A stretch of 64,000 bases of DNA from assembly GCF_029338515.1 (NCBI RefSeq), contig NZ_CP119988.1, forward strand, positions 2,542,001 to 2,606,000, read 5' to 3'. The notes beneath the pieces are model-generated. The model did no database searches. It was given only the letters and a program-made list of their open reading frames with translations, and was not told the origin of the DNA. Positions 41,088 through 54,933 of this stretch are shown here, piece after piece. Source of the stretch: Haloglomus litoreum. GTDB taxonomy: Archaea; Halobacteriota; Halobacteria; Halobacteriales; Haloarculaceae. The position numbers and the translations under genes are program-made. Numbering within the stretch: position 1 is the stretch's first letter; each line of letters opens with the position of its first letter.

Positions 41088-41381
41088 TCACCGATAGAGC
41101 GACAGGTAGATCATCGCGAAGCCGACGATGAAGGGGACCGTCTCGGCGATCTGGAGGGTGACGAGTTCGTTCCCCGCGGCGGCGCCCGTGGTGCCGATCT
41201 GCGTCGTGAGGTTGGTGACGGCGACGCCCATGCTGATGAAGGCGAACCCGATGAAGGCGTACTGCAGGCGCTGGGACTGGCGGCGCTGATACGACTGGAA
41301 GCTGATGACGGTCAACCCGAGCGAGAGGCCGAAGAGTATCAGCCGCATCAGTATCAACACGGCACTGAAGACGTTGACCAT
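41088..41381 (-). CDS. Small membrane protein, second copy of the HTH partner (DUF7521-like)
   Basis: 97 residues with three helices at ~8-28, 40-60 and 75-95 and a basic loop 'YQRRQSQRLQYA', the same layout as the protein at 5235-5552. It lies 73 bp downstream of an HTH gene and has its own TATA-like GATACTTTTTTAG element at ~41412-41424, unlike the first copy, which is 2 nt from its HTH. Function unknown; paralogy is judged by topology and context, not alignment. Confidence 0.75.
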   Translation of the reverse strand: MVNVFSAVLILMRLILFGLSLGLTVISFQSYQRRQSQRLQYAFIGFAFISMGVAVTNLTTQIGTTGAAAGNELVTLQIAETVPFIVGFAMIYLSLYR

Positions 41382-41454
41382 CCTTGCGTTGTAGGCGCCC
41401 CAGCGGGCTAAAAAAGTATCCGGTCGGCTGCGCGACCTGAAATCGCCGCTTCGG

Positions 41455-41811
41455 TCACTCCGCGTCCGAGCCGAGCTCGTCCCAGAGCGCCCCGAACCGG
41501 TCCGGGAGGTTCTCCTTCCGGTAGATGCGCACCTTGTACTCCTCGTCCTTGAGCGCGATGACGGTCGAGTCGAAGTTGCACTCGTAGATGTTGTAGTGGT
41601 TCCCGTCTTCCGCGACCGCCGTCCGCTCGGTGATGAGGTCGTGTTCCTGGAGGAGTTCGAGCCGACGGTAGATGGTCGGCAGCGAGAGGTCGCATTCGTC
41701 CGCGAGTTCCTTCGCCGACCGGGGGCTCCGGCTGATGGCCGCGAGGACCGTTCTCGCGTGCTCGTCGCCGATGGTGTTCAGGATCTCCTCGATGCTGCGG
41801 TCTTCGTCCAC
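41455..41811 (-). CDS. Winged-helix HTH regulator, second copy
   Basis: 118 residues from the GTG at 41811. Winged helix at ~5-80: 'ILNTIGDEHARTVLAAISRS', 'LSLPTIYRRLELLQEHDLIT', 'NHYNIYECNF'. It resembles the HTH at 4891-5232 ('PTVYRRLERLREHDLV'). The downstream membrane protein completes the second HTH/membrane pair. It diverges from the UspA gene at 41920. Expected to bind DNA; targets unknown. Confidence 0.83.
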   Translation of the reverse strand: MDEDRSIEEILNTIGDEHARTVLAAISRSPRSAKELADECDLSLPTIYRRLELLQEHDLITERTAVAEDGNHYNIYECNFDSTVIALKDEEYKVRIYRKENLPDRFGALWDELGSDAE

Positions 41812-41919
41812 GCAGAGAGGTCGGGCGTGCCGTGACAAAGGCTTTTCTCCCACCCGTCCCGGAACCGCCCGCCGTCGGTGGGAGACGGTTTCAAGTGTGA
41901 CCCCGGCCTCGAGGCGCCC

Positions 41920-42339
41920 ATGTACGACGATATCCTGTTCGCGACCGATGGCAGCGACGCCGCCGCCACCGCCCTCGACCACGCCATCACCGCCGCCGAC
42001 GCACACGGCGCGACGCTCCACGTCCTCTCCGTGGCCGACGAGCGCCTCGCGCTCGCGGCCGACGACACCGAGGCGACCCGCGAGGAACTCCGCGAACGCG
42101 CCCAGACGGCCGTGGACGAGGCCGCCGACGCGGCCAGCGGTGCCGGCGTCCACGTCGAGACGGCCGTCCGGAACGGGGTGCCGTTCCGCGAGATTCTCGC
42201 GTATGCCGAGGCCGAGGACGTGGGACTGGTCGTCGTGGGGACGCACGGCCGCGAAGGGCGCGAGAAGCGGGTGAACATGGGCTCGACCGCGGAGCGGGTC
42301 GTCAATCAGGCCGAGCGGCCCGTGCTGGTGGTGCGGTAG
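41920..42339 (+). CDS. Universal stress protein (UspA family)
   Basis: 139 residues. N-terminal 'YDDILFATDGSDAAATALDH', then the nucleotide-binding loop 'GTHGREGREKRVNMGS', then 'RVVNQAERPVLVVR'. The spacing in the loop has one residue more than the canonical G-x2-G-x9-G-[ST], so ATP binding should be tested. Small stress-responsive regulator of unknown target. The ATG at 41920 matches homologues; it converges on the large pilin gene with 6 bp between stops. Confidence 0.88.
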   Translation: MYDDILFATDGSDAAATALDHAITAADAHGATLHVLSVADERLALAADDTEATREELRERAQTAVDEAADAASGAGVHVETAVRNGVPFREILAYAEAEDVGLVVVGTHGREGREKRVNMGSTAERVVNQAERPVLVVR

Positions 42340-42345
42340 GGGAGC

Positions 42346-44496
42346 TCAGTTGACGTTGAAGCTCACCGTCTCCGACCCGCCGATACTCCACTCGAAGTCG
42401 ATACCGCTGACGGTCGCCGCCGACGACTGCGTCCTGACGCCCTGGAGCTGGATCGTCACCCGCTGGTTGTTCCCGGTGGACAGTCCGCCGGAACCGACCG
42501 TGTAGGTGATGGTCGCGTCGTCATCGCTGGCCGAGATACTCGCGGTTCCACCCCGGAGCGTCGACCCGCCGGTGTTCACGCTCGCCGACCGGTAGTCGAC
42601 CGGGTTCGGCTGACCCCCGTTGAGCCCCTGGGCGGTGTCCAGGTCGATGGTGACGGTCTGGCCCGGGTCCATCTCGTAGTTCGACTGGAAGGTGAACGTC
42701 TGGGTCGTCGCGGTCTGGCCGCGCTGGACGTTGCTCGCGCTGGTCTGGGAGAACGGGTCGATCCCCAGGCCGTCGGAGATGAAGAACGTCTGGGTGATCC
42801 CGTCGAGCGCCTGGCCCGGATTGGCCGGGTCGGGCGTGACGACCCGCGCGGTGAACACGAAGAACGCGTCGAAGTTCCCGCTCCCGCCGGACTGTTCGAG
42901 CGTGTCGTCGAAGTCGAACCGGACGGTTCTGGTCCCATCTGCCGGAACCGTGATGGGGCCGATGTCCTTGAGTTCGGTCCCGATGAGGAGCTGTCCGTAG
43001 TTCGTCCCGGTCGGGCTGCTGAGCGTCGCGAAGTCCGGGTTCCCGCTGGCCAGGACGAACGGGATTCGGCCCGTCTGGAACTGCTTCTCGGTCGTCTCGT
43101 TCGTGTTCCGGAACGTGACGACTATCGTATCGCTCCCGTCAAGCGTGGCCGACTCGATGAAGACGTCCTCATCGCGGGAGTTGATGTCCTGGAGTCGGTC
43201 CGGGCGGCCGCCCTCGCCGTCGTCGTCGTCGTCGGTGATGGTCGCCGACGAAACGGAGACGTCGAAGGTGACACGCTCGTAGTCGTCACGGTTGGAGTTG
43301 GCGTCGCCGAGGTCCACGTCCCCGGCCTCGATCTCCGCATCGCCGGTTCCGGTGGGTTCGAACACGACGCTCGCCTGCCCGTCCTCGTCGGTGGTCACCG
43401 TCGCGCTTCCGCTGCCCGAGATCTCGAACTCGCCGTCGGTCGTCGAGAACGGAACCTCGACGCCGCTGACGGGGTTGTTGTACCGGTCGCGGACCTCGAC
43501 GGTCAGTCGCTGCGTCTGGGTCTCCAGGATGCTGCTGTCGTCGCCCTCGACGCTGGTCAGGTACTGGGGGGGTTCCTCGTCGAAGCCGCTCCCGAGGCCG
43601 ACCTTGGCCATCCGGAGGTTGTACGTGCCAGGCTCGAAGGTGATCACGAGTTCGCCGTTGCAGGGCTCGGAGTCGGCCGCACCGCTCGTACACTCGATGT
43701 CACTGACGTAGCGGTCGTCCTGGTTCCCGGCCTGGTCGTACTCGGAGCCGAGGATGTCCTCCTTCCAGGTGTTCTCCGAGAGGGCGGTCTCGACCCGGAT
43801 GGTGGCACCACCCGTGGTCGTGACGCCGATCGGACGGGTCGCGGAACTCACGGGGACGGCATCCAGCGACAGCTCGTCGACCTGCTGGGTCGCGAGCCCG
43901 CCCGTCAGCGTGGTGATGGTGATGCGGCGACCGCTCACGAGCGCGCCACGGTCGACGACGACCTGCTGCTGGTCGTCCTCGGCGAACCGCTTGTACAGCA
44001 CGCCGTTCTCGTAACCGATCTGTGGCTCCGCGCTGTACTCGTTGTAGTCCGCGCTGTAGTTCAGCGCCCTGGACTCGAAGACTGGCAGGTTCCCTTGGAG
44101 GTACTCGCGTGCCTCGGGATCGACCGCCTGGAAGCCGGACACCCTGACCGCGCTCGCCCGCGTGCTGATGTCACCGCTCACCGGCGGCGGGTTCAGCAGG
44201 AACAGCCGCGGCGGATAGCGTGTCCCGAGTTCGAGGGGCGTGGTCTCGCGGGCACCGCCGGTCGCAGCCCCCTCGATGGCCTCGTCCAGTTGCTGGAAGT
44301 CACCCTCGATCCGCTGACTGTGCTCGAACTCGATCTGCTGGTTCGCGGCTGGCACGGCGCTCAGTTGTACCAGTGCCAGTACTGCCAGCACGAGGCCGAA
44401 CACGAGAATCGCGCCAAGCACCTCCGATACACCACGATCGCCGCCCTCGCCGCTATCGCGCCCCTGGTTGCCAGGTGGAGAATTCATGCGTTCCAT
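42346..44496 (-). CDS. Giant pilin-like protein with Ig-like domain (cassette 1)
   Basis: 716 residues. The N terminus has a type IV-pilin (class III) signal: a basic/Gly region ending 'GDRG' before 'VSEVLGAILVFGLVLAVL', the hydrophobic alpha1 helix cut by prepilin peptidase. A large ectodomain follows: 'LFLLNPPPVSGD' motif, then a bacterial Big_1-type Ig domain at ~320-400 ('VEVRDRYNNPVSGVEV', 'TTDEDGQASVVFEP'), then further beta-rich domains. Most pilins are far smaller. It is the third gene of a PilB-PilC-pilin cassette and has its own AT-rich upstream region. Expected on the cell surface as part of an adhesive pilus or as a minor pilin. Confidence 0.85.
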   Translation of the reverse strand: MERMNSPPGNQGRDSGEGGDRGVSEVLGAILVFGLVLAVLALVQLSAVPAANQQIEFEHSQRIEGDFQQLDEAIEGAATGGARETTPLELGTRYPPRLFLLNPPPVSGDISTRASAVRVSGFQAVDPEAREYLQGNLPVFESRALNYSADYNEYSAEPQIGYENGVLYKRFAEDDQQQVVVDRGALVSGRRITITTLTGGLATQQVDELSLDAVPVSSATRPIGVTTTGGATIRVETALSENTWKEDILGSEYDQAGNQDDRYVSDIECTSGAADSEPCNGELVITFEPGTYNLRMAKVGLGSGFDEEPPQYLTSVEGDDSSILETQTQRLTVEVRDRYNNPVSGVEVPFSTTDGEFEISGSGSATVTTDEDGQASVVFEPTGTGDAEIEAGDVDLGDANSNRDDYERVTFDVSVSSATITDDDDDGEGGRPDRLQDINSRDEDVFIESATLDGSDTIVVTFRNTNETTEKQFQTGRIPFVLASGNPDFATLSSPTGTNYGQLLIGTELKDIGPITVPADGTRTVRFDFDDTLEQSGGSGNFDAFFVFTARVVTPDPANPGQALDGITQTFFISDGLGIDPFSQTSASNVQRGQTATTQTFTFQSNYEMDPGQTVTIDLDTAQGLNGGQPNPVDYRSASVNTGGSTLRGGTASISASDDDATITYTVGSGGLSTGNNQRVTIQLQGVRTQSSAATVSGIDFEWSIGGSETVSFNVN

Positions 44497-44592
44497 ATGT
44501 TATCTGAATGAATATCGTTTGCTATTGGTTTCAACGGCCGCGACGGTCGTGCACCCGGGACCGGCCCACGGTGGTATCGCTCCCCGGCCATC

Positions 44593-46638
44593 TCAGAGCA
44601 CCAGGAAGACCACCGTCGTCAGGACGACGAGCGCGATGGCGTACTTGAGCCCGGCGAGGCTGTCGTTCTCTGCCAGCTTCCCCGCCAGGAGGCCGCTCCC
44701 GATGGCCTGGATGAGGGCCGAGTGGAAGAACAGCATCCGGTAGAGGCTGACCGGCACGTCGGCGAACGACAGCGGCAGGTCACGGCCCTCGCCCGCCCCC
44801 GTCCCCGGGTCGAGCTCGGAGATCGGTTGCAGGAAGCTGGCGTCCAGCATCACGATGACCAGCAGGTAGACGAGGAACCCGATGACGACCACCGCGATGT
44901 ACGCGGTGAGTTCGCGGCGCCTCGCACGCTCGATCTTCGCCCGGTCGCGTGCGTCCTCGGCGGCGATGCTGAGGACCCGCGCGAGGTCACCCGAAGAGCG
45001 CAGCCCGTCCGAGAGCAGCTTCATGCTCCGCGAGAGCTGTGGCGTCTTGAGCCGGGCACCGAACGAGAGCAGCGCCCGGCTCACGTCGAAGTTCCAGGCG
45101 ATGTCGTTCTTGACCGTCCGGAGCTCCTGGGCGACGGGCCCGGTCTGGTAGCGCGAGATGAGTTCGAGCGCGTCCGGCAGCGCGATACCCATCTTGTTCG
45201 CGGAGGCGAGGATGTTCAGCGTGTCCGGGAACCGCTCGGTGATGGCACGCTGGCGGGCCGCACGGAGTTCGACGAACACCGACAGCGGGACCGCCACGAT
45301 GAAGAACGGTACGACGACGAACCAGGTGGTCGTCGCGACCGGCGCGTCCGTGAAGGCAGCCACGGAGGGCTCGGCGAGACCGTAGAGGATGGACGCGACG
45401 AGCACCAGCACGGCGGTCGGGACCGTCAGCGCGAGGGTGTAGAGCGGGTTGTCGTGGAACACCTCGAGCGGATCGTTGAGCAGTCCCCGGATTCGGACGA
45501 CCCGGGCCGTCGACTCGTAGCGCTCGTACCGGTCGTCACCCTCGAGTTCCGACTCGTCGAACGGCAGTTCCTCGACGGGCCTGGTCACGCTCGTCGTGCC
45601 CGGCGTCTCGAACGGCGACGACAGCACGTCGATGAGCACCAGGAACGCCACCATCCCGACCGGGAGGACCAGGTAGATGAGCGAGGTCATCGCTTGAATG
45701 GTGCTCCCGCCGATGAGGCTGATGACGACCAGCGTGACGACGAGGAACAGCGGCGCGGCGACGAAGCCGACCACGAACACCTCGGCCATGATGGCCAGCG
45801 TCTCCAGGAAGTCGGCCTGCTCCTCCTCGGCCTCGCGGAGGTAGTTCGCCGCCTCGTTCTCGAAGAAGGTGGTCACGTCACCGCCAGCGTCCAGCACGCC
45901 GAGCATGTCGTCGAGGAACCCCTCGAACCGGTCGGAGGGCGTGAGGTTCCGGGCGCTCTGGAGCGCGCTGTACATGTCGCTGCCGAACAGGTCGATGTCG
46001 TTGACGACCATCTCGAACTCGTTGGCCACCTCGCCGTACGTCTCCTCGGCGTCCGCGATGTCACGGAGGACGCCGAGCAGGTCCTGCCCGCCGTACGACA
46101 GCGCGTACATGTAGACGATGGCGTGAGGCAGGGTCACGTCGATGGCCTGGCGGCGCGACGAGACGACGGTCGACGGGTAGTAGTACCGGCCGAGCCATAT
46201 GAGGCCGCCGAGCACCGACGTCACGATCAGCGTGATCGCAGCGCCCGCGAGGAGCGTGCGGTTGGCCTCGATGTACCGGGCGAGGTCACCGCTGAACTCG
46301 ATGGGACTCTGGAGGTCGGCCAGCAAGCCCGTCTCGATGAGGAGCCCGGTGAGCGCGATTCCGAGCCCCGCACCGAGCAGCCCACCGGCGATGGCGTACC
46401 AGAGGCTCCGCGCCAGGTACGAGTCGTAGGTGGCACCGATACGGGCCTGGTTGAGCGACCGCTGGATGCCCGCGAACCGTCCGGGGCGGAGCTTGAAGTA
46501 CGTCCGCACACGGCCGTACTCCTTGCGCATCCGGCGCTTCTCCTCGTCGGAGACCGGGCGGTCCGCCGGCCGGATGTCGAGGCCCATCTCGCTGATCCCG
46601 GTATCGTCGATGTCGTCGCGGTTGAACTCCGAGCTCAT
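44593..46638 (-). CDS. pilC: PilC-like type IV pilus membrane platform protein (cassette 1)
   Basis: 681 residues, the TadC/T2SSF-type integral membrane protein that supports pilin assembly. An N-terminal soluble part (~1-70) precedes two T2SSF domains with transmembrane segments at ~80-105, 125-155, 305-360, 405-450 and near the C terminus; 'FPDTLNILASANKMGIALPD' marks the second one. The ATG overlaps pilB by 4 nt. It is complete and in frame, unlike the homologue at 50665-53080. Partner ATPase is PilB upstream. Confidence 0.93.
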   Translation of the reverse strand: MSSEFNRDDIDDTGISEMGLDIRPADRPVSDEEKRRMRKEYGRVRTYFKLRPGRFAGIQRSLNQARIGATYDSYLARSLWYAIAGGLLGAGLGIALTGLLIETGLLADLQSPIEFSGDLARYIEANRTLLAGAAITLIVTSVLGGLIWLGRYYYPSTVVSSRRQAIDVTLPHAIVYMYALSYGGQDLLGVLRDIADAEETYGEVANEFEMVVNDIDLFGSDMYSALQSARNLTPSDRFEGFLDDMLGVLDAGGDVTTFFENEAANYLREAEEEQADFLETLAIMAEVFVVGFVAAPLFLVVTLVVISLIGGSTIQAMTSLIYLVLPVGMVAFLVLIDVLSSPFETPGTTSVTRPVEELPFDESELEGDDRYERYESTARVVRIRGLLNDPLEVFHDNPLYTLALTVPTAVLVLVASILYGLAEPSVAAFTDAPVATTTWFVVVPFFIVAVPLSVFVELRAARQRAITERFPDTLNILASANKMGIALPDALELISRYQTGPVAQELRTVKNDIAWNFDVSRALLSFGARLKTPQLSRSMKLLSDGLRSSGDLARVLSIAAEDARDRAKIERARRRELTAYIAVVVIGFLVYLLVIVMLDASFLQPISELDPGTGAGEGRDLPLSFADVPVSLYRMLFFHSALIQAIGSGLLAGKLAENDSLAGLKYAIALVVLTTVVFLVL

Positions 46639-48701
46639 CGGTCGCCCTCGACGCGCTCGTCCGCGTTGCTGTCATCCTCGGTGTTCCCGCCGTCGGCCGC
46701 CTCGGTGAGACCGCCCGCCGGTCGTTCGTCGCCGAGCTCCTCGAGGTCGGCGTCGGCTGTCTCGGCCGCGGCCGCGAGGACCTCCTCGTACGTAGCGGCA
46801 TCCAGCTCGGGTGGGAGTCCCGTCCCGCGCGGTGCCACATCGTCCGCCGCGATAGCGTCGTGGACGGCCGTTCGGTTGTCCTCGGCCCGCGCCGAGTCGA
46901 ACTCGGCGGGGTCGAACGTTCCGGCCTCGATGGCTTCGAGCACCTCGTCGGGGTTCCGGGCGTACGCCTGGATGGCCGTGGCGACATCGTTGTACCCGTG
47001 GATGTTCTCCTCGACCAGGTACTCGAGAACGCGCTGGCGGGCCTGGAACTCGCCGGCGAGCTGTTCGTCGGTCCAGCCGCGTTCGCGGGCGATCTGCAGG
47101 AGGACGTCCGACTCGCCGACCCGCTCGTGCGTGTCGGTCTCGGGGTCCCACTCGAAGATGTCCGTCCAGTCGACCCGGTCGGGCTGGGTCTCGTCACCGC
47201 TCAGTTCCGCGACGGTCGCGTTCCGGCGGACACGGCGGTCGCCGAGGAACGTCTGGCGCTGGATGCTGATGACGTCGAGGTCCTGCAGCATCTGGGTCGG
47301 AATCGAGAGCGGTGGGTTCTGCAGCCGCGAGAGTGCCGTCTCGACGCTGTCGGCGTGGATGGTCGTGTAGGCAGTGTGACCGGTTCCCATCGCCTGGAAG
47401 AAGGTCAGCGCGACGTTCTGCTCGGTCCGGATCTCGCCGACGAGCAGGTACTCGGGACGCTGGCGGAGCGCGGCCTGCAGGAGGTTGTACATCGTCACCT
47501 CGCCGCGCCCCTCACCGCTGGCCGAGGAGCGCGTGACCGACTGGACCCAGTTCTCGTGCGGCAGGTCGATCTCGCGGGTGTCCTCGATGGTGACGACCTT
47601 CGAGTGCTGCGGGATGAAGAAGGACACCGCGTTCATGCTGGTCGTCTTCCCCGACCCCGTGCCGCCGGCGAAGATGAGGGACTTGTTGTTCTCGATGGCG
47701 AGCCAGAAGTACGCCATCTGCTCGACGCTGAAGGTGTTCCACTCGATGAGGTCGACCGGCGTGTACGGCACGTCCGCGAACTTCCGGATGGTGAAGTTCG
47801 CGCCCCGGGTGGAGATGTCGCCGCCGAGCGTGAGCTGGATACGACTTCCGTCCGGGAGCGAGGCGTCGACCAGCGGGCTGGCGATGCTCACGGAGCGCCC
47901 GGCGCGCTGGGCGAGCTGGACCACGAACGAGTTGAGCTTGCGCTCGCTGAACGAGACGTTCGACGGCAGGTCGCGGTACTCGCGGTGGTAGACGTACACC
48001 GGAACCTCCGTACCGTCACAGGAGATGTCCTCGATAGCGGAGTCCCGCATGATCGGGTCGATGGGACCGAAGCCGAGGAAGTCACGCCGGAGGTAGTAGA
48101 CCACCTTGTGGAGCGTCCCCGGATCGACCGTGGCCGCGTGCTCGTCGACGAGGTCACGGGCCTGGGCCATGAACGCGCCCTCGCGGTTCCCCGGCTCGAA
48201 GTCCATGTAGATGAGCTCGTTGCGCAGGAGCGTGATGAGGTCGGCCCGCACGTACTGCTCGAACAGGTCCAGCGTCGGCTCGACGACGCGATACTGGTAC
48301 TCGTTGCGCTCGGCGTCGTACAGGATGGAGATGAAGGCGAACGGCTCGTTCACCCACCGGCGGTCGACCTCCTCGTACCGCTCGAGATAGGAGAAATCGA
48401 AGAACGACTCCTCGACGAACTCGTCGTCGGGCGCGCCGAAGGGGTCCCCACCACCAGCCCTGAAGTACTCGCGGACATCCTCGAGGACCGCCTCCACCGT
48501 GGGATGGACGGGCTCGGTGGCCGGCTCCGGTTCCGGCTCGACCACGTCCTCATCCCCCCCGACACGCCGGATCGCCTGGCGTGGGGCTGGCTCCGCGTCG
48601 GCCGCCTCTTCGTCTGTCATGGCGGTTGACTCTGCGCCACCGGTGTTATAATTACCCCCGCCGTCACCGTTCGGCTCCATCTCCTCGGGCCGGCCGGTCA
48701 T
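46635..48701 (-). CDS. pilB: PilB-like type IV pilus assembly ATPase (cassette 1)
   Basis: 688 residues. GspE/TadA-type secretion ATPase: Walker A 'GGTGSGKTTSMNAV' (~345), Asp box 'IEDTREIDLP', Walker B-like 'LLVGEIRTEQ' (~415) and His box 'GTGHTAYTTIHADS'. It powers pilin polymerisation. The N-terminal ~90 residues and C-terminal tail are acidic low-complexity. The ATG at 48701 is supported by a Shine-Dalgarno GGAGG (48709-48713, 7-nt spacing) and a TATA box at 48782-48790. Confidence 0.95.
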   Translation of the reverse strand: MTGRPEEMEPNGDGGGNYNTGGAESTAMTDEEAADAEPAPRQAIRRVGGDEDVVEPEPEPATEPVHPTVEAVLEDVREYFRAGGGDPFGAPDDEFVEESFFDFSYLERYEEVDRRWVNEPFAFISILYDAERNEYQYRVVEPTLDLFEQYVRADLITLLRNELIYMDFEPGNREGAFMAQARDLVDEHAATVDPGTLHKVVYYLRRDFLGFGPIDPIMRDSAIEDISCDGTEVPVYVYHREYRDLPSNVSFSERKLNSFVVQLAQRAGRSVSIASPLVDASLPDGSRIQLTLGGDISTRGANFTIRKFADVPYTPVDLIEWNTFSVEQMAYFWLAIENNKSLIFAGGTGSGKTTSMNAVSFFIPQHSKVVTIEDTREIDLPHENWVQSVTRSSASGEGRGEVTMYNLLQAALRQRPEYLLVGEIRTEQNVALTFFQAMGTGHTAYTTIHADSVETALSRLQNPPLSIPTQMLQDLDVISIQRQTFLGDRRVRRNATVAELSGDETQPDRVDWTDIFEWDPETDTHERVGESDVLLQIARERGWTDEQLAGEFQARQRVLEYLVEENIHGYNDVATAIQAYARNPDEVLEAIEAGTFDPAEFDSARAEDNRTAVHDAIAADDVAPRGTGLPPELDAATYEEVLAAAAETADADLEELGDERPAGGLTEAADGGNTEDDSNADERVEGDR

Positions 48702-48781
48702 CGCTCGTCCTCCCCGACGACAGAGAGGCTCGTCCCCTCGAGGTTCCCGGTCGAGAGAAGATAATTTCTGGATATCATTAC

Positions 48782-48790
48782 TATATAAAC
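48782..48790 (-). promoter_or_regulatory. Promoter of cassette 1 (TATA box) with RBS
   Basis: TTTATATAG on the minus strand lies ~85 nt before the pilB ATG, predicting a start near 48759 and a leader of ~55 nt that includes GGAGG at 48709-48713. A leadered, RBS-bearing transcript contrasts with the leaderless genes elsewhere in the window. Confidence 0.55.
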
Positions 48791-48896
48791 AGCGGAACAG
48801 GTAGTAAATATTTCGCCCAGAACTGGGATGTGGAACCCGCTGAGAACGCGCTTCGGGAACCGTCGCGGGGAGCTACATCGGGGAGCAACCGTCGCC

Positions 48897-50639
48897 TCAG
48901 TCCTGTGGTGCCACGAGGTACGAGGAGGTACTCCCGTCACTGAACCGCAGCGTGAGGACGTAGAAATCCCCCTCGACGACGTTGTACTGCTGGTCGGAGA
49001 CGCCGAACGTCGAGTCGGTGACGTCGAACTCGAACCGGTAGGTGTGGGTTCCGTAGGGGGCCGCCGTGTCGGCCGGGACGGACAGCGGCGACGACAACGT
49101 CAGTCCCCCCTCCGCGAAATCCTGGTCCGCCGACCCCTGGAACGACCACTCGTCCGGGCGGGGCCGGGGGAGCGGCTTCCCCTGTGATCCGCCACCACCG
49201 CCACCGCCGCCACCGCCCGGATTCGGGTTCGGAATCGGGTACGCCTGCCCCGCGCTGTAGACGTTGACACGGACGGCGGTGATCGTCCGGGCCCGGCCGC
49301 GGTTCTCGAAGGTGACGTCGACACGGCAGTTCGAATCGGTCAACACCACCGTCCGCTGGCTAGTATCGGGCGGGGTACAGTTCACGATGGACGCCGTACT
49401 GAGCGTGAAGGCGTCGCTCCCGCCGGGGTTCAGTTCGCCGCCGCTTCCCTCCGTATCCTCGCCCGTCCCGGGCAGGCTGGCGGTCAGGTCGTACACCACG
49501 CTCAATGGGTCGCCGTCGGTGCCGGTGCCGGCCCCGGCGACGGCCGTGACCTCGACCGGACCGGCCACCGACGGCGTGTACGAGAGGGTCGCCTCGCCCT
49601 CGCCGCCGGTCGTGACCGTCTCGGTCGTGGGGGCGCCCCTGCCGTCGTCGACGGTGAACGTCACGTCCTCGCCCGCGACGGGCCCGTTGTACGCGTCACG
49701 GACCTGCACGGTCAGGTCCGACGGCTCGCCGACCGTGACCGACTGCGTGGTCGGATCGCTGGTGGTGACGTACGCTGGCGCCGCATCGTACGGCGCCGAC
49801 CCGACTGCCACGCGTGCGAGTTCGAGCTCGTAGGTGATCCCCTCCTCGAGCACCACCTCGACGGTGCCCGGATCGTCCCCTGCCACCACGTCCTCGACGT
49901 GGCCGTCGGTCATCTCGTCCTCGAGGAAGTCCCTCCACTCGGCGGGCGTCGCCGCCGTCCGAAGGGTGAGGCGGATGTTCTCGTTCCCGGCGCCACTGAC
50001 GCGGACGGTCTCCGTCGGCGCGGCCTGTGCCGTGACCGGCACCGAGACGGCGCCGACCCGGGACTCGTTTCGCCGGCCGGCGAGCGCCGTCAGTTCGATG
50101 GAGCGGCCGTCGATGAACCCGCCGGCATCGATGCGACGGGTCGGCCCGTCGTCGAAGCGGTCGTAGACGACGCCGTGTGAGAGCACGGTCTCCGGGGCCT
50201 CCTCGTAGACGTTGTAGTCGACACGGTAGACCAGTCGTCGGGACTCGTACGGGTCCGTGGGGTCGCCGTCCCAGTAGTCGTCCGTCTCCGTGTCACCGAC
50301 CGCGACGGCGTTGTCGATGCTGAACCGAGAGGTCTCCGCCGTGAGACTGCCGGAGACGGGCGGTGGGTTCCGGAACAGGAACCGGGACGGGTAGTCGGTC
50401 CCGATGGTGACGACGGCGGTGCCACCGTTGCCGCTGGCGGCGGCGTCGTTCAACTCCGCGTCGAGTCCCAGCAGATCCGTCTGGGCCTCCTGGTTGTGGT
50501 CGAACTCGACCTCCTCGTTCGACGCCGGGACCGCCGTCGTCTGGAACAGCGCCAGGGAGATGACCACCAGCCCGAAGACGAGTATCGCACCGATTATCTC
50601 CGAAACGCACCGATTGTCCGAGTAGATTCGGTTTTCCAT
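48897..50639 (-). CDS. Giant pilin-like protein with Ig-like domain (cassette 2)
   Basis: 580 residues. Class III signal: 'NRCVSEIIGAILVFGLVVI', so the residue just before the predicted cleavage is Cys, where Gly/Ala/Ser is normal. Next, 'YPSRFLFRNPPPVSGSL' parallels cassette 1, then a Big_1-type Ig domain (~305-385, 'VQVRDAYNGPVAGEDVTFTV'), a 10-Gly linker (~490) and a C-terminal beta domain. A GGTGA about 10 nt before the ATG is a probable RBS. It follows the broken pilC by 25 bp and would be displayed by the cassette 2 machinery, if functional. Confidence 0.82.
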   Translation of the reverse strand: MENRIYSDNRCVSEIIGAILVFGLVVISLALFQTTAVPASNEEVEFDHNQEAQTDLLGLDAELNDAAASGNGGTAVVTIGTDYPSRFLFRNPPPVSGSLTAETSRFSIDNAVAVGDTETDDYWDGDPTDPYESRRLVYRVDYNVYEEAPETVLSHGVVYDRFDDGPTRRIDAGGFIDGRSIELTALAGRRNESRVGAVSVPVTAQAAPTETVRVSGAGNENIRLTLRTAATPAEWRDFLEDEMTDGHVEDVVAGDDPGTVEVVLEEGITYELELARVAVGSAPYDAAPAYVTTSDPTTQSVTVGEPSDLTVQVRDAYNGPVAGEDVTFTVDDGRGAPTTETVTTGGEGEATLSYTPSVAGPVEVTAVAGAGTGTDGDPLSVVYDLTASLPGTGEDTEGSGGELNPGGSDAFTLSTASIVNCTPPDTSQRTVVLTDSNCRVDVTFENRGRARTITAVRVNVYSAGQAYPIPNPNPGGGGGGGGGGSQGKPLPRPRPDEWSFQGSADQDFAEGGLTLSSPLSVPADTAAPYGTHTYRFEFDVTDSTFGVSDQQYNVVEGDFYVLTLRFSDGSTSSYLVAPQD

Positions 50640-50664
50640 TGATATATTCACCTTTGGATGATTG

Positions 50665-53080
50665 TCAGAGAAGCGCGAACACGACCACCGCCAGCGCGAC
50701 GAGGCCGAGCCCGTACTTGAGCCCGCTGCGGATGCTGTTGTCGGCCAGCTTCCCGGCGAGGATGCCGCTCCCGAACCCCTGGATGACCGCCGAGTGGAAG
50801 AACAGGAGCTGGTACTCCTCGATGGGGACGTCGCTGAACGAGATGGGCGCCCGCTGTTCACCGACGTACTCGGCCTGCTCGCCCGCGGTCTGGGTGACCG
50901 GCTGGAGGTAGCTGGCGTCCAGCGCCACGATGACCAGCAGGAACACGAGGTAGCCGATGACGACGATGGCGATGTAGGAGACCATCTCGCGCTTGCGGTC
51001 CCGCTCGAGTCGGTAGCGGCCGCGGGCGTCCTCGGCGGCCACCGAGAGGACCCGCGAGAGGTCGCCGGAGGAACGCAGCCCCTCGGCCAGCAGCCGGGTC
51101 GTCCGCGCCAGTTGCGGCACCTCCAGCCGGGAGCCGAAGGCCAGCAGCGCCTCGCCGGTCGAGGCGTTCCAGATGATGTCGTTGCGGACCTTCCGCAGTT
51201 CCTCGGCGACCAGCCCCGACGAGGAACGGACGACGAGGCCGAGCCCCTCGGTGAGGCCGATGCCCATCTTGTTGGCCGAGGCGAGGATGTTCAGCGTGTC
51301 CGGGAACCGCTCGGCGAGTTTGCGCTCGCGACGGGTCTTGCGCTCGTGGTAGTAGGTCAGCGGCAGCGTCGCGACGAACAGCGGCAGCACCACCAGCCCG
51401 GTCGTCGTCAGGACCGGCGCCTCCAGCAGCGCCGCGTAGCTCGGCTCGACGATGCCCGTCACGACGAGGGCCACCGTTCGGGTCGCCGCCCGATGGCGAC
51501 GCGTCGGCGGCCGGCATCGCCGGGGCCGAGCCGTCGTCGCCCTCCGCGTTCACCGCCGTCGCGGTCCGTTCCAGCAGTGACGGCTCCTGGGTCGCCGGCT
51601 GGTCGGGGGCCGTCCGGTCGAGCCGCTCGGTGTCCGCGGTTGCGGTGGCCCGCTTCCCGGAGAACGGCCCGTGGTGCGGACCGGTCCCATCGCCCCAGGC
51701 GGCGACGCCGGTCGGCCGGAAGTCGCCGGCCGGGCCCCCGTCTCCGAACTCGCTCCGGTCGGGCGCCTCGACGTGGCCGGTCTGGACGAACGGCGAGGAG
51801 AGCACGTCGATAAGGACGATGAACGACACCATCCCGACCGGGATGACCAGGTAGACCAGCGACGCCACCTGTAACAGCGTCTGCCCGCCGACGAGGCTGA
51901 TGACGACGAGGATGACGATGAGGAACAGCGGCGCGGCGACGAACGCGACGATGAACACCTCGCTGAGGATGGCCAGCGTCTCCAGGAAGTCCGCCTGCTC
52001 GTTGCGGGCCTCCTCCAGGTAGTCCTCGGCGGCGTCCTCGAGGAAGACCGTCACGTCGCCGCCGGATTCGAGCACCCCGAGCAGGTCGTCGAGGAACTCC
52101 TCGAGCCCGTCGCTCGGGGTGCTGTTGCGGAGGTTCTGGAGCGCGGTGAACGTGTCGTTGCCGAACAGCTCCAGTTCACGCATCACGGTGTCGAACTCCG
52201 CCGCGAGCTCGCCGTAGGTGTCCTCGGCCTCGGCCACCGCCCGCAGGATCTCGGTCAGGTTCATCCCCCCGTACGAGAGCGCGTACATGAACACGATGGC
52301 CTGCGGGAGGGTGATCTCGATCTCCTGTTTCCGGCCGGAGACGGTCAGCACGGGGTAGTAGTAGAGGCTCGCGTACGTCCCCACGGCGAGGAGCCCGGCG
52401 AGGACGGTCCCGAGACCCGCGGCCGCGAAGACGAGGCGGTTCGCCCCGACGAAGCTACCGACGCCGCCCCCGACGCCGGTCGTGACGCCGTCGAGGACCC
52501 CGGCCCGCGCCAGCAGGAACGCCAGCGCCACGCCGAGCAGCGCGCCCACCAGGCCGGCGGCCAGCGAGAACAGGGTGGCCCGCGTGAGGTACTCGTCGTA
52601 CGACCGTGCGATCTGCGCCTGGTTGAGGAGGCGCTGGTAGTCGCTGTACGCCGTGCGCCGGGCCCGGAAGTACGTCTCCAGGTAGCCGATGTCGGCGCGG
52701 TAGCGCTCCTGGAAGGACCTGTCGATAGTCTCCTGTCCGGGCAACCCCTCGATGATGGTCTCCGGGTTGTCCTCGTCAGCGTCGGAGGCGACCGACTCCG
52801 TGTCAGGGCCGACTCGCTCGGTCCCGGGTCCGGACTCGTCCTCTGTATCCGCCCCGCTCCCACCCGGGAGCCTGCTGCCCGCACTCGCGTCACGGGAGGT
52901 CACCGCCTCGGGGTCGCCGGGGGAGGGGTCGGCGGTCGGCGCTCCGGGTCGGTCGTCGACGGGCTCGTCGGGGGCGGGGGACGCCTCCTCCTCGGGGGCA
53001 GCGGCACCGCCGGAGTGGTCGGTCCCGTCCGGCCCGTCGGCTGCGCGGTCGCCGTCGCCGTTGTCGTGGTCGTCGGCCAT
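50665..53080 (-). pseudogene. pilC: PilC-like protein, frame-disrupted (cassette 2)
   Basis: The N-terminal part (53080 down to ~51490) reads in one frame: an acidic soluble region, 'RRTAYSDYQRLLNQAQIARS', then the first T2SSF domain ending 'VSFIVLIDVLSSPF' and a long polar linker. The C-terminal part (51474-50665) reads in a frame shifted by one nucleotide and starts inside a transmembrane helix ('LVVTGIVEPSYAAL', 'FPDTLNILASANKMGIGL'). Cassette 1's PilC has 'LYTLALTVPTAVLVLVASIL' there, so half of that helix appears to be missing as well. A deletion plus frame change or an assembly artefact is more likely than programmed shifting. The ATG at 53080 overlaps the pilB2 stop. Confidence 0.85.
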
Positions 53081-54933
53081 CAGGAGACCTCGTAGCCCCG
53101 CTCCCGGACCTGCTGGAGGACGTACTCCGGGTCCTTCTGGTAGAGGTGCGTGACCGATGCCACGTCGCGGTAGTCGGTGATGTCCTCCTCGATGAGGAAG
53201 CCGAGGACGGCCTCCCGCCGGGCGATCTCCCGGTCGAGCTCGGCCTGCGACCAGCCCCGCTCGTCGGCCACCTGCGCCAGGACGTCGGACTCGCCGACCC
53301 GCTCGTGGGTGTCGCTCGCAGCGTCCCAGTCGTAGACGTCACGGGTCTGCACCCGCGACGGGTCGTCCTGTCGGTCGACGACCTCGATGATGCCCTGGTT
53401 GCGCCGGACGCGCTGGTCGCCGAGGAACGACTGCTTCTGGATGCTCACGATGTCGAGGTCCTGGATCATCGCCGTCGGGACCGACAGCGGCGGGTTCTGG
53501 AGCCGATTGAGCACCGTCTCGATGCTGTCGGCGTGCATCGTCGTGTAGGCGGTGTGGCCGGTGCCCATCGCCTGGAAGAAGGTCAGCGCGACCCGCTCCT
53601 GGGTCCGTATCTCGCCGACGAGCAGGTACTCGGGGCGCTGGCGGAGCGCCGCCTGCAGCAGGTCGTACATCGTCACCTGCCCACGGCCCTCGCGGGTGGT
53701 CGAGTCCCGCGTGACCGACTGGATCCAGTTCGAGTGGGGCAGGTCCACCTCGCGGGTGTCCTCGATGGAGATGACCTTGCTGTTCGGCGGGATGAAGAAG
53801 GAGATGGCGTTCATCGAGCTGGTCTTGCCGGAGCCGGTGCCGCCGGCGAAGATGAGCGACTTGTTGTTCTCGATGGCCAGCCAGAAGTAGACCATCTGCT
53901 CCAGCGAGAAGGTGTTCCAGTTGATCATGTCGACCGGCGAGAACGGCACGTCGGAGAACTTCCGGATGGTGAAGTTCGCCCCCCGGGTCGCCACCTCGCC
54001 GCCGAGTGTGAGCTGTAGTCGAGAGCCGTCGGGGAGCGTCGCGTCCACGAGCGGGTCGCTGACGCTGATGGTCTTGCCCGCGCGCTGGGCCAGCCGGACC
54101 GTGTACGAGGAGAGCCGCCGGGGCTCGAAGACCACGTTCGTGTCCAGGTCGCGGAACGCCCGGTGGTAGACGAACACGGGGACGTTGGCCCCATCACAGG
54201 AGACGTCCTCGATGGCCGGGTCGCGCATGATGGGGTCGATGGGGCCGAACTCCAGGAAGTCACGCCGGAGGTAGTAGAGCAGTTTCCGCCGGGTCAGCCG
54301 CGAGACGCTTCGCGCCCGGTCGGCCACGATGTCGGCCACCTCGGACTCGAACACCTCGCGGCGCTCGGACACCGACTCCACGTCCCGGTACAGCAGCGTG
54401 TTCCGGAGGTACTCGACGAGGTCCGTCCGGACGTAGCTCTCGAACTCGTCCAGCGCGGGTTCGGTCACCCGGTAGCGGTACTCCCGCCCCTCCGGGTCGT
54501 AGACGACGGAGACGTAGGCGTACGGCTCGTTCACCCACCGGCGCTCGATCTCCTCGTACCGGTCCAGGTAGGAGAAGTCGAAGAACTCCGAGACGTCCAG
54601 CGTCTCCGCATCGAACGCCTCCCGTTCGAGCAGCGACTCGCGGACATCGGCGAGGACCTCCCCGCGGACCGCCTCGCGGTCGGTGTCCAGCGAGTCCGGC
54701 TCGTCGGGGCCCTCGTCACCGAGGACGCGTGCCGCACGCTGGCCGCCGATCGGTGCGTCCTCGTCGGCTTCTTCGTCGCCCAGCGAGGCGTCCGCCACGC
54801 CCGGCATCGGTTCCTCCCCGGCCGTCGCCCCGCCGTCGCCGTCGGCGAGGACATCGCCGAGCGAGCCGGCTTCCTCGGTCCCGTCAGGGTCACTCGACGA
54901 ACCTGCCGGGGGCGTCGGGTCCTCGTCGCTCAT
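53080..54933 (-). CDS. pilB: PilB-like type IV pilus assembly ATPase (cassette 2)
   Basis: 617 residues. Walker A 'GGTGSGKTSSMNAI' (~361), 'IEDTREVDLP', 'LLVGEIRTQE' and 'GTGHTAYTTMHADS' are all intact, so the ATPase looks functional although its PilC partner is broken. It closely parallels the cassette 1 ATPase ('FDFSYLERYEEVDRRWVNEP' there, 'FDFSYLDRYEEIERRWVNEP' here), showing the cassettes derive from duplication or parallel acquisition. A ~100-residue acidic N-terminus precedes the core. The ATG at 54933 is used; it lies 27 nt inside the longest frame. Confidence 0.93.
   Translation of the reverse strand: MSDEDPTPPAGSSSDPDGTEEAGSLGDVLADGDGGATAGEEPMPGVADASLGDEEADEDAPIGGQRAARVLGDEGPDEPDSLDTDREAVRGEVLADVRESLLEREAFDAETLDVSEFFDFSYLDRYEEIERRWVNEPYAYVSVVYDPEGREYRYRVTEPALDEFESYVRTDLVEYLRNTLLYRDVESVSERREVFESEVADIVADRARSVSRLTRRKLLYYLRRDFLEFGPIDPIMRDPAIEDVSCDGANVPVFVYHRAFRDLDTNVVFEPRRLSSYTVRLAQRAGKTISVSDPLVDATLPDGSRLQLTLGGEVATRGANFTIRKFSDVPFSPVDMINWNTFSLEQMVYFWLAIENNKSLIFAGGTGSGKTSSMNAISFFIPPNSKVISIEDTREVDLPHSNWIQSVTRDSTTREGRGQVTMYDLLQAALRQRPEYLLVGEIRTQERVALTFFQAMGTGHTAYTTMHADSIETVLNRLQNPPLSVPTAMIQDLDIVSIQKQSFLGDQRVRRNQGIIEVVDRQDDPSRVQTRDVYDWDAASDTHERVGESDVLAQVADERGWSQAELDREIARREAVLGFLIEEDITDYRDVASVTHLYQKDPEYVLQQVRERGYEVS

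Follow-up and report, generated by a model that had tools for sequence, protein, structure and literature searches.

What does a haloarchaeal PilB-PilC pair assemble? Haloarchaeal genomes carry several such pairs, and their substrates are mostly unknown. We address this question at a locus of Haloglomus litoreum, in a window of 64,000 nucleotides (contig NZ_CP119988.1, C1:2542001-2606000 of our genome G000) that is part of a single-contig genome of 4.70 Mb. On the minus strand of the window, between positions 42346 and 54933, six genes are arranged in the order PilB-PilC-pilin, occurring twice; we call the two sets cassettes A and B (Table 1). The PilBs of both cassettes contain T2SSE and PilB3_N/PilB3_C domains and the PilCs of both contain a T2SSF domain (Pfam). 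An earlier note on this DNA had described two same-strand cassettes of a PilB, a PilC, and a large pilin; the order, strand, and domains hold, but the PilC of cassette A is not intact. We consider it moderately probable that the type IV machine of each cassette serves to display the cassette's large pilin, composed of a constant stalk and a variable head, and that this pilin functions in adhesion or cell contact.

The large pilins combine a conserved N-terminal module with a variable head

The translations of pilins A and B (580 and 716 amino acids, respectively) directly contain an NPPPVSG motif and a class III start, R-x↓VSE(V/I)(L/I)GAILVFG (the arrow marks the cleavage site), and Big_1 domains are found in both (Pfam, E 3.7e-10 and 5.5e-11), as the earlier note had read. 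Of the 83 relatives scored, all 83 carry G, A, or S at the cleavage site. Pilin B has the charged N terminus, the G/A/S site, and the hydrophobic helix of a class III signal substrate, whereas pilin A, unlike all of these relatives, has a Cys at -1. In AlphaFold models of pilins A and B (mean predicted local distance difference test [pLDDT] values of 79 and 78), an N-terminal helix of 60 residues is followed by a confident beta-module, an immunoglobulin-like (Ig) domain, and, at the C terminus, a further beta domain. The modeled Ig domain, whose modeling the earlier note had proposed, matches domains from invasin and complement macroglobulin (Z ~12). Whole-chain fold searches returned multi-Ig proteins only, at low template-modeling scores, and the Ig domain alone was informative.

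The N-terminal segment of both pilins scores above the Pfam cut-off for DUF7289 (PF23960), with a match at positions 1-67 only of this 238-position domain. We considered whether the pilins are DUF7289 members over their whole length and rejected this beyond the helix, as a profile comparison aligns the helix alone (61 profile columns). Neither pilin falls into the PilA-type Pilin_N family (PF07790), for which pilin A scores 17.4 bits against a cut-off of 25.2 and pilin B is unlisted.

The earlier note had also stated that the two pilins differ in their C-terminal domains, and a comparison by module likewise places the main differences in the C-terminal parts. Across 185 pairs with related N-terminal modules (pairs that are non-independent, many of them within one genus), the median identity falls from 85% in the helix and beta-module to 58% in the Ig part and 48% in the C-terminal part. 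The pilin of locus L148 is 87-91% identical to those of 13 relatives in the N-terminal part and 32-38% identical in the C-terminal part. Against the same-genus relatives used for comparison (G047 and G048), pilin A of this strain retains 77-81% identity in the beta-module and 15-24% in the head; this head is 40-43% identical to heads from three other genera. Both L148 and the A pilins of the genus look like cases of head replacement.

In cassette B, compared with same-genus relatives, PilB (78% identity), PilC (79%), and the downstream helix-turn-helix (HTH) gene (92-93%) are conserved; pilin B is only 35% identical. DNA similarity is continuous to position 44605, breaks up into short patches (chiefly in the helix region), and is back at 42339. 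From these alignments, the pilin B gene looks as if it had been replaced between conserved flanks, and pilin genes would thus be replaceable behind a conserved machine.

Among the same-genus pilins of L173, L174, and L175, that of L174 differs from the other two mainly in the Ig part (36-38% identity, compared to 94% in the N-terminal and 75-79% in the C-terminal part), as if the middle domain had been exchanged. Between L063 and L064, which are from the same genus, pilin B is 98.7%, PilB-B 89.3%, and pilin A 62.5% identical, suggesting that the pilin B gene was recently transferred.

Large pilins behind PilB and PilC are common, and the tandem pair is old

Homologues of pilin B are present in 129 of the 146 genomes of the family and also in contigs named Halorubrum, Halogeometricum, Halogranum, Halobellus, Halorussus, and Halococcus. 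In the contig scan, a 7-row alignment worked, while a 25-row alignment was too divergent; a plasmid search gave four partial matches only. The earlier note, which called for a search of PilB-PilC-pilin triplets and a comparison of pilin lengths, had considered it unusual for so large a pilin to be the last gene of its own pil operon. The arrangement turned out to be common in the family. Outside this genome, our sample holds 72 distinct pilin-like genes (from regions picked mostly by match quality, and hence not unbiased), and 36 of them lie directly behind PilC and PilB. With the exception of one truncated frame of 171 amino acids, these 36 triplet pilins are 503-698 amino acids long (median 552), so that lengths of 580 and 716 are ordinary. 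The other 36 genes have no PilB/PilC neighbors and encode up to 1,710 amino acids. The H. litoreum genome itself contains four triplets. It also has one PilB-PilC pair that lacks a pilin (L047), a DUF7287/7288/7261/7266/7289 locus (L051), and orphans as long as 2,581 amino acids.

Tandem double cassettes also occur in G047, G048, G083, G065 (Halorarius halobius), and G143. In a PilB tree (a quick search with Shimodaira-Hasegawa-like approximate likelihood ratio test [SH-aLRT] supports, without bootstraps), the A copies form one clade (support 100) and the B copies another (support 96). Because each of these clades spans the same four genera, the tandem pair is best explained by one old duplication. 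The pilin A sequences, too, group in one clade (support 96), in contrast to the pilin B sequences.

At L048 of this genome (G000:C1:1085500-1105000), two orphan class III-type proteins, one of 2,581 amino acids with DUF11 repeats and one of 1,195 amino acids, share the N-terminal module and have no PilB/PilC nearby, and the same-genus genomes G048 and G047 have matching frames of 2,582 and 2,757 amino acids, respectively.

Proposed assembly and its alternatives

Prepilins of archaeal type IV pili use the Sec pathway for export, are processed by the prepilin peptidase PibD, and are assembled by PilB and PilC. We infer export, cleavage, assembly, and a role in adhesion for the large pilins as follows. 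Each cassette would be a minimal haloarchaeal type IV pilus machine plus one dedicated large prepilin. Sec would export the pilin, PibD would cut it after the R-G/A site, the hydrophobic helix would hold it in the membrane, and PilB together with PilC would extract it from there and build it into a surface structure. The assembly part, that is, the constant stalk, would consist of the conserved helix and the first beta-module; the Ig domain would be a spacer and the C-terminal domain an exposed head. Given that the head seems to be exchanged between strains, its probable job is adhesion or contact with other cells or partners, under diversifying pressure. The pilin may build its own short filament, be a tip or minor subunit on PilA pili, or form a bindosome-like pseudopilus.

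Several points weigh against dedicated assembly, the case for which is built from sequences and models. Small PilA-type pilins (5-18 per genome) were found in 22 of the 22 triplet genomes tested, and, because of this, the large proteins could be minor subunits and not the filament itself. Roughly half of the examined family members lack an adjacent PilB/PilC and reach 1,000-2,600 amino acids; the N-terminal module, therefore, can apparently function without a machine of its own. Part of the head variation could be due to rapid evolution of the tails, although L148 and the A pilins of the genus look like replacement. Finally, no solved pilin stood out in fold searches for the first beta-module, which is not evidence of a new fold.

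It is quite conceivable, although on balance we doubt it, that the large proteins serve as minor or tip pilins on filaments of small PilA-type pilins and that the cassette PilB and PilC are a paralogous machine for shared pilins. In addition to the small pilins of the 22 triplet genomes, this genome has at least 25 small Pilin_N genes. Makarova 2016 (PMC4858521) classes the Ig-like arCOG02911 proteins as minor pilins and proposes that ATPase/TadC pairs share pilin sets, and PilB3-C3 of Haloferax volcanii can replace PilB1-C1 (PMC6491452). On the other hand, the separate pair without a pilin at L047 would suit PilA, none of the triplet cassettes examined contains a small pilin gene, and the co-occurrence with PilA-type pilins is uninformative because the H. 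volcanii control has them too. Within the PilA-type set of this genome, three genes occur twice (G000:C1:3237518-3238846 and 3279900-3281228), about 42 kb apart and with identical scores, suggesting a recent duplication.

Assembly of the pilins into short ligand-binding surface structures instead of long filaments, as in the bindosome, is unlikely in our view. The Sulfolobus bindosome couples a PilB/PilC-like pair, that is, an assembly ATPase and a platform (BasEF), to the display of large substrate-binding proteins with class III signals. The bindosome has been called pseudopilus-like (PMC4419858). The bead-like multi-domain models and variable heads of the pilins would fit such an assembly. 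Domain searches, however, found no substrate-binding-protein domain in the pilins, which instead have Ig domains and heads that are small beta domains. Moreover, PilB and PilC match the curated BasE/BasF models far below the cut-offs (195-204 bits versus 1000 for PilB, and 28-32 versus 1300 for PilC).

That the large proteins are surface layer (S-layer) or other non-pilus proteins merely adjoining pil genes is very improbable: they are large, Ig-rich, and acidic like surface proteins, and their Ig profile matches the S-layer protein domain 8s83 (E 4.4e-5), but the class III start is invariant, the position directly behind PilC is conserved, and no hydrophobic C-terminal anchor was seen on inspection of the translations, which end in ...SETVSFNVN and ...SSYLVAPQD. 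The earlier note had named two findings that, if combined, would speak against pilins at this locus, namely, separate small major pilins elsewhere and large proteins of an S-layer or other non-pilus kind. Small PilA-type pilins do occur elsewhere in the triplet genomes, yet the large proteins look like prepilins.

A still broader conjecture, which we hold only tentatively, is that the cassettes represent a widespread unrecognized haloarchaeal surface system, in which a constant pilin stalk, assembled by its own PilB-PilC, would carry a modular head swapped among strains by recombination, as an archaeal counterpart of variable bacterial adhesins, with viruses or partner recognition as the driving force.

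Cassette A is probably broken at PilC

The PilC-A frame (50858-53080) reads correctly only to about 51508. The G+C content at third codon positions (GC3), calculated by frame, switches at about 51480, and, in tblastn, intact PilCs from four relatives align with the window in two separate frames. Homology to G048 ends at 51508 and restarts at 51471, with about 240 nucleotides between these points in G048, and the net loss relative to G047 is 200 nucleotides. The lost part includes a segment ending in ...NPLGLFRKRPNATLLVSVPAA, which is present in the intact proteins of the genus. Beyond the break, the frame runs on as arginine-rich sequence, which makes a split but working PilC-A unlikely. The frames of PilB-A and pilin A are still open.

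Cassette A in this strain is, in all, probably broken at PilC, and the deletion and frameshift, together with the Cys at -1 of pilin A, suggest that the cassette is decaying. The damage was seen in one assembly of one strain, in which the other two frames of cassette A are open, as they would be if both cassettes were intact and the damage came from an error in sequencing or assembly. We regard such an error as quite unlikely, since about 200 nucleotides are lost rather than one nucleotide slipped, the genome is a single contig, and the Cys of pilin A fits the decay of cassette A. Each cassette does have a large Ig-domain pilin of its own, from which the earlier note envisaged two distinct structures or one heteropolymer, but the deletion and frameshift in PilC-A make two working systems in this strain doubtful. 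With its own PilC probably broken, pilin A would depend on another PilB-PilC for assembly, perhaps that of cassette B, or would not be assembled at all.

Relationship to described systems

The earlier note saw here a candidate for an undescribed surface system. A large pilin in its own pil operon is already known in kind: Makarova 2016 (PMC4858521) described arCOG02911 pilins as common to clade 2 systems, prone to duplication, about 250-550 amino acids long, Ig-like, FlaFind-positive, and probably minor, and Pohlschroder & Esquivel 2015 (PMC4371748) mentioned two relatively large pilins co-regulated with PilB4-C4. What we did not find described in the literature searched, the coverage of which was incomplete, is the conserved tandem pair and the replacement of heads. 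The same literature did not name DUF7289 and yielded nothing on Natrinema combined with cryo-electron microscopy of pilins. The main interest of the locus is its modular variation and not pilin size or operon order.

The cassettes resemble euryarchaeal clade 2 type IV pili, such as PilB3-C3 of H. volcanii, in their PilB3_N/PilB3_C domains, single TadC-like PilC, and class III pilins. The H. volcanii PilB3 locus, however, has no pilin, whereas each cassette here has one large pilin and a tandem duplicate. With the arCOG02911 minor pilins, the large pilins share a FlaFind-type start, an all-beta Ig-like make-up, variable length, duplication, and location in pil loci; compared by description only, they add a Big_1 domain and a head. 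The likeness to DUF7289 is in the N-terminal helix segment, with no convincing match beyond it, and DUF7289 proper lies at L051. This locus, with its DUF7287/7288/7261/7266/7289 pilin-like genes, is the probable PilB4-like locus of this genome. The cassettes share with H. volcanii PilB4-C4 the encoding of large pilins with their own PilB-PilC, but the PilB of L051 is on a different deep branch of the PilB tree from the PilBs of both cassettes.

Because one large pilin is kept with its own machine and its constant and variable parts are separable by sequence, it becomes testable which PilB-PilC serves which pilin. The ligands of the variable heads, whether surfaces, mating partners, or viruses, become testable as well.

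Promoters and flanking genes

Cassette B probably has its own promoter, as suggested by a TATA-like sequence in the gap between the cassettes (48789-48782). A TTTATGG box about 27 nucleotides upstream makes the PilB-A start at ATG 54933 plausible.

Table 1 Features of the two cassettes and their downstream flank (window coordinates)
Feature	Coordinates	Strand	Evidence
PilB-A, assembly ATPase, 617 aa from ATG 54933	53080..54933	-	T2SSE E 1.4e-31, PilB3_N/PilB3_C; clade A in PilB tree
PilC-A upstream part, in frame	51475..53080	-	T2SSF E 1.4e-16; tblastn and blastn with relatives' PilC; homology stops near 51508
PilC-A deletion (~200 nt) and frameshift site relative to G047/G048	51471..51508	-	Frame GC3, tblastn, blastn
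PilC-A downstream part, other frame	50665..51474	-	72% identity to same-genus PilC in second frame
Pilin A, 580 aa	48897..50639	-	Class III start with Cys at -1; helix 10-69; beta-module 73-279; Ig 287-391; C-terminal head
TATA-like TTTATATA between cassettes	48782..48789	-	Sequence inspection
PilB-B, 688 aa	46635..48701	-	T2SSE E 3.9e-35; clade B in PilB tree
PilC-B, 681 aa, intact	44593..46638	-	T2SSF E 2.8e-27; 79% identity to same-genus PilC-B
Pilin B, 716 aa	42346..44496	-	Helix 21-80; beta-module 84-301; Ig 312-416; head 445-574; low-confidence tail
UspA-type gene next to the cassette, facing it	41902..42330	+	PF00582 E 1.3e-31; same position in G047 and G048
Winged-helix regulator (HTH_20), just downstream of cassette B	41455..41808	-	E 1.1e-11; same position in several genera
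Small DUF7521 membrane protein beside the regulator	41088..41381	-	E 6.6e-9

We looked at the small genes that recur downstream of cassettes as candidate small pilins and rejected them, since they encode an HTH regulator, a DUF7521 membrane protein, Usp, a HalX response regulator, and DUF7504. The winged-helix gene may be a regulator of the cassettes. Together with the gene of the small DUF7521-type membrane protein, it recurs just downstream of cassettes in several genera (window positions 41088-41808, L056, L057, L058, and L062), and the winged-helix gene also recurs in L063-L065.

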